DNA of 64,000 nucleotides from Coffea arabica. Lineage: Eukaryota; Streptophyta; Magnoliopsida; Gentianales; Rubiaceae. The DNA is taken from assembly GCF_036785885.1 (NCBI RefSeq), contig NC_092323.1, positions 5,062,501-5,126,500 on the forward strand, given 5' to 3'. The notes beneath the pieces are model-generated. The model searched no databases and was not told the origin of the DNA. It worked only from the letters and a program-made list of their open reading frames with translations. The position numbers and the translations under genes were made by a program. Shown here piece by piece: positions 474 to 3,986 of this stretch. Each line of letters begins with the position of its first letter. Within the stretch, counting starts at the first letter, position 1.

Positions 474-514
474 TTGGTTGAATTGTGGTCACTACAGTTA
501 ATCCTTTATATTTA

Positions 515-797
515 GGAAAATTTGCCAAATTGGTCCCTAACATTTACCAAAAACACTTTTTTAGTCCCTGACATATAAAATCAGCCAAAATGCTCCTTCA
601 CATTTAAATTGTGAGCCAATTTGGTCCTATTGCTCGTTTTTGCTCGTTTCTCCGGCTAAAAATAGCACGTCCCTCTCACGTTGTCATATTTTTAGGGGCA
701 AAACCGGAAACACATTTCATTACCGGTTGAAAGTAAAAGGATAGGGGACCACCACCAAAATACACATTTTACCTTTGGCTCTCAAATTACCCTTTAC
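515..797 (+). repeat. Left terminal inverted repeat of the Pack-MULE
   Basis: The repeat starts GGAAAATTTGCCAAATTGG and matches the reverse complement of 1569..1869 over nearly its whole length, with scattered mismatches and small indels. It ends just before the EXO70 start codon at 803. Confidence 0.88.
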
Positions 798-802
798 TCT
801 CT

Positions 803-1252
803 ATGGAGCCACCGGAAAACGACGCCGTGGCTATTGCATCAGCTGAGAAAATCATCCTCCGCTGGGACTCCACAGCCTCCGAGGACGCCAGGGACAGAAT
901 GATCTTCGACGGCGATCGATATGAGATCGACAAATACTTCCAAGCCGTGGATGAAATCCAACGGTCAATGGAATCCGCCAGCATCTCAGACGACTCTGCT
1001 AAGGCCAACAGCGCGATCCAGATCACCATGGCCCGCCTGGAAGACGAGTTTCGCAATATTATCATTGCTCAAACTTCCCCTCTCGAAGCCGACACTCTGA
1101 CCGATCCCAGCTCTTGTTCCTTCCGCTCCATCGCTTCTATTGGCAGCAGCGACGGCCACTTGAGCTTGCTGCCGCCGCCGCCGCCGTCCCTGCACACCGA
1201 GGAAGACGACTTCACCGAGACCAACTTGGCAAGTTTGGTAAAGAAAATGTGA
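803..1252 (+). pseudogene. Captured EXO70 N-terminal fragment (exocyst subunit)
   Basis: The open frame of 149 codons starts at its own ATG and reads like the N-terminus of a plant EXO70: AEKIILRWDSTASEDARDRM, then IFDGDRYEIDKYFQAVDEIQ, RLEDEFRNI and LTDPSS blocks, with TEEDDF near the end. EXO70 tethers secretory vesicles to the plasma membrane as part of the exocyst and is usually over 600 residues, so only about a quarter is present and the membrane-binding C-terminal helices are missing. The homology stops near codon 145 and a TGA follows. The clade (perhaps EXO70D-like) is a guess. The frame is intact, so it could be transcribed and translated, but a working exocyst subunit is not expected. 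It lies wholly inside the element. Confidence 0.85.
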
Positions 1253-1568
1253 TCCTTCCAGGAAACTTAGCCTTTCTTTTCGTGTGATTCCTTTGCCTAA
1301 AAGGGGCGGCTCAAGCATCATGTATGGAAGGTGCACAAAGTATTCAGGATGCCACAAAAAACTTCACTCATTCAGCGAAATCTTCTCGCCAGATCAGGGC
1401 ATAAAGCTTGTGAATTCTCCATTTTCCAATCTAAGGGTGACCATTCACTCTTAAGTTGAATTGTCCAATTTTCAAGATTGATTATAACAAAATTGTCCAT
1501 TCACTCTCAAATCACCTTTGGCTCCATATGCTTGTTAATTTGGGGATGCAAATAGGGTTTCTTGAAAG
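1253..1568 (+). other. Unassigned interior of the Pack-MULE
   Basis: This stretch follows the EXO70 fragment and does not continue EXO70. One plus-strand frame is open from 1266 to a stop at 1452, 62 codons, Cys/Lys/Ser-rich. It may be a second captured gene piece; I do not recognise it. Near 1500 a short copy of the inner TIR motif (CTCTCAAATCACCTTTGGCT) occurs. Confidence 0.4.
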
Positions 1569-1869
1569 GGTAATTTGAGAGCCAAAGGGAAAGGGTAATT
1601 TGAGAGCTAAAGGTGAAATGTGTATTTTGGTGGTGGTCCCCTATCCTTTACTTTCAACAGGTAATGAAATGTGTTTCCGGTTTTGCCCCTAAAAATATGA
1701 CCACATGAGAGGGGCGTGCTATTTTTAGCCGGAGAAATGAGCAAAAACGAGCAATAGGACCAAATTGGCTCACAATTTAAATGTGAAGGAGCATTTTGGC
1801 TGATTTTATATGTCAGGGACTAAAAAAGTGTTTTTGGTAAATGTTAGGGTCCAATTTGGCAAATTTCCC
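1569..1869 (-). repeat. Right terminal inverted repeat of the Pack-MULE
   Basis: Read on the minus strand it starts GGGAAATTTGCCAAATTGG and follows the left repeat. It has a short internal duplication of the motif GGGTAATTTGAGAGC at its inner end (about 1569..1610), which makes it slightly longer than the left copy. Confidence 0.88.
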
Positions 1870-1944
1870 TTATATTTACTTGGTTTGTTAATCCTTTATA
1901 TTTACTTGGTTTGTTAATCCTTTATATTTACTTGGTTTATCCTT
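1870..1944 (+). repeat. 26-bp tandem repeat at the Pack-MULE target site
   Basis: The unit TTATATTTACTTGGTTTGTT plus AATCCT is present nearly three times. The left flank of the element (about 497..514) also ends with part of the same unit, so the element landed inside a short tandem repeat. Confidence 0.75.
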
Positions 1945-3182: not shown

Positions 3183-3986
3183 TTAAACCTCAGCAAAGTT
3201 TGTGCAGAGTTGTTCATCGTTTCCAGCTAAGGTCCGAAAAGTGGACAAATTTTCCCAGCTGCAACCGAAGGTCATAAACAGCCTTGGGACAGCATTCCCG
3301 CCGTATCTCCATTTGCTAAAGTCAATATTTGAAAAAGGAAGAGAGAAGAAAATTTAACGAGAAAAAAAAATTGAAAAAGAAGACTCAATGTGTAGCAGCA
3401 AATTAACGAGTGAAGCCAAGAATTGAGGATGAGCAGGAATTCATTCATTCGTTCAATCACTTGAATATTCAGAACAAAATATTACAATTATCATTCCTGA
3501 CTTCAAATAGTGCTGCTTAACTAAAGCAGAACAATACTTCGGTATTGGGGGGAAGATATTAAAAATGTTGAGGAGAAAATGAAGAAAAATAGAATAATAA
3601 ACAAAAAAGGAGTTTCTCTCAGACAAATGCCTCGATTTGTCGTCACGATTGTAAACGAATGGATTTTCGATCAGACTCGTCATCTGAAAAATCTTCATCA
3701 CTGAGAAACACCCGAAAAAGATCATCGAAAAACGAAAGAAGAAGCAAAATATATATATACACACACTCTTAAAGAATACCGGGCGATGATTGACTCAGTT
3801 ATTAGTTCGAACTGGAAATGATTGGAAAGAGTACAGCACTTACGAGCTAGTGAGGAACGGCATTAGCAGAACAAAACCTAGGGAATTGGTTGGGGCAACG
3901 CAGTTGTATTTATTCACATTGGAGCGGAGACTCGGCAGTCTTCTGATTGCTAGGGTTAGGGTTGAGAAAAGCTCCGCGGATTTCAT
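3183..3986 (-). CDS. Possible small two-exon gene, mitochondrial-presequence-like start
   Basis: This is a tentative model on the minus strand: exon 1 3986..3844, donor GTAAGT, acceptor TTTAG, exon 2 3315..3183, joined in phase to give about 91 residues. The N-terminus MKSAELFSTLTLAIRRLPSL is Ser/Arg/Leu-rich and lacks acids after position 5, like a mitochondrial targeting peptide. The rest (KWRYGG, then NLSTFRTLAGNDEQ) matches no family I know. A telomere-like ACCCTAACCCTA motif lies just inside the start, so the ATG could instead be part of a leader. An alternative frame in exon 2 ends LSQGCL. No evidence beyond splice signals, phase and composition supports it. Confidence 0.22.

Follow-up and report, generated by a model that had tools for sequence, protein, structure and literature searches.

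The window analysed here is a stretch of 64,000 nucleotides from Coffea arabica, a species with 22 chromosomes and two subgenomes (contig NC_092323.1, positions 5,062,501 to 5,126,500, forward strand). In keeping with this host, a methyltransferase search of the genome led to a gene on C2 with a last exon that matches PDB 2efj, the 3,7-dimethylxanthine methyltransferase of Coffea canephora, and the counterpart of this exon on C1 departs from the 2efj stretch at 1 of 133 residues. Its first 307 positions hold the 3′ part of a PLATZ-like gene, with a Pfam score of 22.5 bits, just below the cut-off of 25. The PLATZ-like frame ends at position 305 in the window and is 54 codons longer on the homeolog, C13. 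Downstream of this gene lies a transposon-like element of 1355 bp, which spans positions 515–1869 and has the ends GGAAAATTTGCC...GGCAAATTTCCC. A plant C/D-box snoRNA, SNOR75, was found on the minus strand at 3614–3706 (71 bits) and is the one snoRNA in the window, and a tRNA scan of the window found none.

The element is bordered by terminal inverted repeats (TIRs) of ∼281 bp, which are 96.5% identical over 282 aligned bases (514–795 against 1590–1870). A first-pass annotation, made from the sequence alone, had put these inverted ends at ∼290 bp. Each TIR contains a TATAAA motif facing inward (574 and 1810). Between the TIRs lie two pieces of host DNA, the first of which comes from an EXO70 gene and has a GC content of 57% (803–1230) against 37% in the window. 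Within the element, just two stop-to-stop frames reach 110 aa, that of EXO70 and another running antisense to it. No transposase-sized frame was found inside the element, as judged by frames, the Pfam run being on the EXO70 frame alone. The features are listed in Table 1.

Table 1. Features of the element and its borders, in window coordinates (TSD, target-site duplication).
Feature	Position	Strand	Basis or content
Left TSD, TTATATTTA	506..514		Exact match to 1870..1878
Left TIR	515..795	+	Self-alignment; terminal 34-bp consensus repeated across the genome
Captured EXO70 fragment	793..1226	+	∼10 bp of 5′ leader and ∼141 codons; 96%/95% to the C7/C8 EXO70 genes
149-codon open frame	803..1252	+	Starts as Exo70_N; final 8 codons and stop derive from the second captured fragment
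Second captured fragment, upstream DNA of a glyoxal-oxidase-like gene	1227..1496	-	97% over 270 bp to C8/C7
Filler and subterminal sequence	1497..1589		1527–1592 common to many other places in the genome
Right TIR	1590..1869	-	Self-alignment
Right TSD, TTATATTTA	1870..1878		Exact match to 506..514

The exact 9-bp duplication reported in the first pass is present on both sides of the element. The insertion site also carries a 26-bp tandem array (1866–1938, running to 1943), with ∼3 units beside the element and ∼1 unit on the homeologous chromosome. As the 9-bp match could stem from this array, the TSD by itself is weak evidence of transposition. The homeologous site on C13 contains a single array unit, GCTAATCCTTTATATTTGCTTGG, with no element and no EXO70 sequence. 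The target is present there as a single copy that differs by one base from that of the window (TTATATTTG). We therefore reject the idea that the TSD is an artefact of the tandem array, as the C13 site has one unit and lacks the element.

To find the origin of the interior, window positions 800–1600 were searched against the genome (1.198 Gb, 131 contigs), and 40 of the 70 candidates were scored. They included the window itself, three further full copies matching at 98–99% and source loci in two pairs, in addition to numerous short matches to 1527–1592. The matches sit on homeologous contig pairs. The EXO70 piece derives from the 5′ part of an EXO70 gene that lacks introns, either the one on C7 (629 codons) or its homeolog on C8, and each of the two homeologs shares sites with the copies against the other. 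The parental gene that the first-pass annotation proposed to look for by a genome search is thus present as a pair of intact genes away from the locus. The C7 protein contains Exo70_N and Exo70_C (Pfam, E 6e-131), and its closest solved relative by sequence is 7pp2. In the product of the frame within the element, residues 11–87 match Pfam Exo70_N with an E value of 1.3e-13.

The second piece was overlooked in the first pass. It corresponds to DNA upstream of a glyoxal-oxidase-like gene (C8:9617991 and C7:10012202), which Pfam names by a match to Glyoxal_oxid_N (E 2e-101). Within the element this gene's direction is leftward, against the EXO70 fragment. The earlier description of a 149-codon EXO70 frame with its own ATG therefore holds for the ATG and for ∼141 of the codons, but the last 8 codons and the stop belong to the second piece. 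Likewise, the start of an EXO70 gene was correctly recognized as captured, but it is not the whole of the captured content. The element is a chimera of two host sources, both of which are found elsewhere in the genome.

The junctions bear on how the pieces were acquired. The EXO70 fragment and the left TIR overlap by three bases, TTT, while the junction between the EXO70 and the second piece looks blunt. As the EXO70 sources each consist of one uninterrupted open frame, the lack of introns in the element says nothing on RNA versus DNA capture. The second piece ends directly before TATATAAA, ∼68 bp upstream of the ATG of the glyoxal-oxidase-like gene, and TATATAAA was not captured. RNA-mediated capture is disfavoured because this piece holds DNA upstream of TATATAAA, which is not expected in a copy derived from mRNA. 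The presence of upstream DNA argues for capture at the DNA level, perhaps during repair or through template switching. Given how the second piece is oriented, a captured antisense promoter was also considered; this is weakened by the piece stopping just before TATATAAA.

The four full copies, namely the one in the window and L002, L003 and L004, align end to end and through the junctions. All four are flanked by exact 9-bp TSDs that differ between copies (TTATATTTA, TTAACTAAA, TTTTCGTTT and ATATTCTTA), and the homeologous site of each has one target and no element. The empty site is on C13 for both the window copy and L003 and on C16 for L002; for L004 it was seen on C5 and also at two related, duplicated loci. 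Different TSDs together with empty homeologous sites indicate that the unit moves, and we conclude that the chimera of EXO70 and upstream DNA has spread as one unit to four sites or more. This and the EXO70 sources on C7 and C8 bear out the Pack-MULE reading of the first-pass annotation. The movement was presumably brought about by a Mutator-like (MULE) transposase encoded elsewhere that acted on the TIRs. A chance inverted duplication or a segmental duplication at the locus, with no transposon involved, could draw on the position of the 9-bp repeat in a tandem array, where it is weak evidence alone. Such an origin is hardly credible given the presence of the same unit at three other loci with other TSDs, the empty homeologous sites and the large family of elements that share the TIRs.

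The copies differ from each other by 0.37–2.4%, from the EXO70 sources by 2.8–4.0% and from the second source by 3.0–3.3%. Over the captured parts, the homeologous sources differ from each other by 0.95% and 0%, respectively. In both pieces the copies have differences from both homeologs in common, which makes it probable that the capture is older than the subgenome split. The insertions seem to be more recent than the capture, as each of them is absent on the homeolog, although loss on the other side is possible at any single site. Around the four sites, divergence between homeologous flanks is 1.7–4.0%.

The terminal 34-bp consensus of the TIR has 265 matches in the genome at no more than two mismatches (127 forward and 138 reverse), and the backward control gave 0. 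The ends of this TIR family are GGGAAATTTGCCAAATTGG. We examined 39 distinct elements, of which 21 came from 30 loci (6 were fetched twice and 3 had no second end) and 18 were added, picked for varied size among the ∼100 listed of the 265 terminal matches. All 18 added elements match the full TIR of the window element at both ends (∼200–277 bp at 91–95%). An exact 9-bp TSD flanks 32 of the 39 elements, three have a TSD with one mismatch, and four have none as called. For L037, one of these four, a TSD is regained if the border is shifted by one base. Another, L074 (C11:61227383–61228811), has inverted copies of one sequence on its two sides, and a further TIR end is seen ∼600 bp on. It is doubtful as a simple element and perhaps represents a larger inverted rearrangement.

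The interiors of the 39 elements fall into eight clusters, and one copy is interior-less. Besides the EXO70 interior (4 elements) there are seven others, or six without the doubtful L074, in line with the expectation in the first-pass annotation that copies with the same TIRs would carry different interiors. An interior with an F-box frame is found in 9 elements (Pfam E 9e-9 for L034). Four interior types, with 10, 5, 5 and 3 elements, gave no Pfam match above the cut-off in the frames scanned. The remaining two are the start of a subtilase gene in L073 (C8:13168970–13170412; scanned frame of 309 codons with Inhibitor_I9 and Peptidase_S8) and a piece of a class-I tRNA synthetase in L074, recognized by Pfam. 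The interior-less copy, L022 (C4, around 74513951–74514386), is 436 bp long and has the same TIR type and its own 9-bp duplication, TTTCCAAAT. Two further elements, L027 on C2 and L029 on C1, which are homeologous chromosomes, have the duplication TTAAGATAA in common, which suggests an insertion before the subgenomes diverged. The genome has many MULE transposase domains; of 2147 candidates 150 were scored, most of them free of stops. None of the domains, which were scored without their flanks, was tied to the TIRs of the family, and no autonomous partner was found among them.

We then considered whether the EXO70 frame is used. It is open in all four copies, one of which is 3 codons shorter by an in-frame deletion, the sole indel in the frame among the copies. 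L002 and L003 are identical within the frame. Between the window copy and the sources there are 9 non-synonymous and 2 or 3 synonymous changes, giving dN/dS values of 1.29 and 0.85. Other pairs, of two copies or of a copy and a source, have values of 0.18–0.72 on 2–7 synonymous changes. Parsimony places 18 changes on the tree, of which 8 are synonymous (6 of the 12 that arose among the copies and 2 of the 6 fixed earlier), compared with 23–31% expected. The one-sided tail for this excess is ∼0.03 at an assumed 22% and 0.12–0.14 at 30%. The excess is a weak hint of constraint, with small and mixed counts. When random substitution without indels was simulated, the frame stayed open in 74%, 64% and 54% of cases at 10, 15 and 20 changes, respectively. 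As the frame often survives random substitution and the tree has 18 changes, its being open is little evidence of use, whether for expression or for the small-RNA action that the first-pass annotation suggested.

These observations bear on the possibility that the element is a new protein gene, whose 149-codon product, an N-terminal fragment of EXO70, would be made and maintained by selection, for instance to compete within the exocyst. The open frame in every copy with its single in-frame indel, the dN/dS values of 0.18–0.42 in several pairs involving L002, L003 or L004 and the share of synonymous changes on the tree would all fit such a gene. We nevertheless consider it highly improbable, given the ratios for the window copy, a one-sided tail of 0.03–0.14 for the synonymous excess, the survival of the frame in more than half of the simulations at 15 and at 20 changes, and a fragment that lacks the Exo70_C domain of its source. 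The EXO70 piece is most likely cargo of a Pack-MULE without selected function, a reading that the synonymous excess weakly opposes.

The cargo could also act through RNA. The EXO70 part contains 411 21-mers; the C7 gene has exact counterparts for 216 of them and the C8 gene for 192, and the longest exact blocks are 84 and 83 bp. Small-RNA cross-talk with EXO70 is therefore possible in principle. The element might thus be a regulator, in that transcripts from the TIRs or read-through from the PLATZ-like gene would form double-stranded RNA and give rise to small RNAs acting on the parental EXO70 genes. The long, near-perfect inverted repeat, the inward TATAAA motif in each TIR, the identical 21-mers and exact blocks of up to 84 bp, and the presence of four copies in the genome are consistent with this proposal. 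We regard it as unlikely, since a recent capture would equally give high identity to the source, and the captured upstream piece is without the TATATAAA of its source gene. In a more specific version, the four copies would together act as a scattered silencing locus directed at the two EXO70 genes, and the head-on upstream piece of the glyoxal-oxidase-like gene would start antisense EXO70 RNA despite lacking TATATAAA. This version is very unlikely; if true, a regulatory region and an antisense target would have been brought together by one transposon capture. Under the cargo reading, the EXO70 piece is perhaps weakly transcribed from the TIRs and silenced by small RNAs.

Taken as a whole, the evidence identifies the element as a non-autonomous Mutator-like element of the Pack-MULE kind, in which TIRs of this family enclose the beginning of an EXO70 gene and, fused to it, ∼270 bp of glyoxal-oxidase-like upstream DNA. 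We assign a probability of about 94% to this reading, that is, a chimera of two sources, mobile as a unit and most likely without selected function. The Pack-MULEs described from rice, maize, Arabidopsis and tomato likewise have long TIRs, 9-bp TSDs, GC-rich gene pieces, no transposase and several copies with different TSDs (PMC4858842, PMC9168764). The coffee element differs from them in detail only, by its combination of EXO70 and glyoxal-oxidase-like upstream DNA and by its coffee TIR family. Capture from two or more parental genes has been described (PMC4858842, PMC9168764), about one third of rice Pack-MULEs are reported to exist in several copies, and the DNA that Pack-MULEs pick up tends to be GC-rich (PMC8277862). 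TIR promoters that drive Pack-MULE interiors have been described as well (PMC3310237).

Two known systems are particularly close. PM-ZIBP of tomato is also a eudicot Pack-MULE family that multiplied after capturing part of a single host gene; most tomato copies are described as having tandem TIRs, whereas the coffee element has single TIRs and belongs to a TIR family with many cargos (PMC3310237). The Abermu MULEs of barley share GGG...CCC termini, long TIRs, mostly 9-bp TSDs and TA-rich sites with the coffee element. They are given as 8.2 kb long and probably autonomous, in contrast to the 1.36 kb coffee element without transposase, and the likeness noted here is one of features (PMC9168764). 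A search of literature listings showed no earlier description of the coffee EXO70 element or its TIR family.

The coffee element is an ordinary, well-confirmed example that leaves the knowledge of Pack-MULEs unchanged. It is an unusually well-documented Pack-MULE in an allotetraploid crop. A single genome contains the two sources, the junctions, the four insertions and the corresponding empty sites, and this record orders capture and spread relative to the subgenome split. With the eight types of interior seen among the elements examined, its TIR family would lend itself to studying how Pack-MULEs acquire 5′ gene ends.
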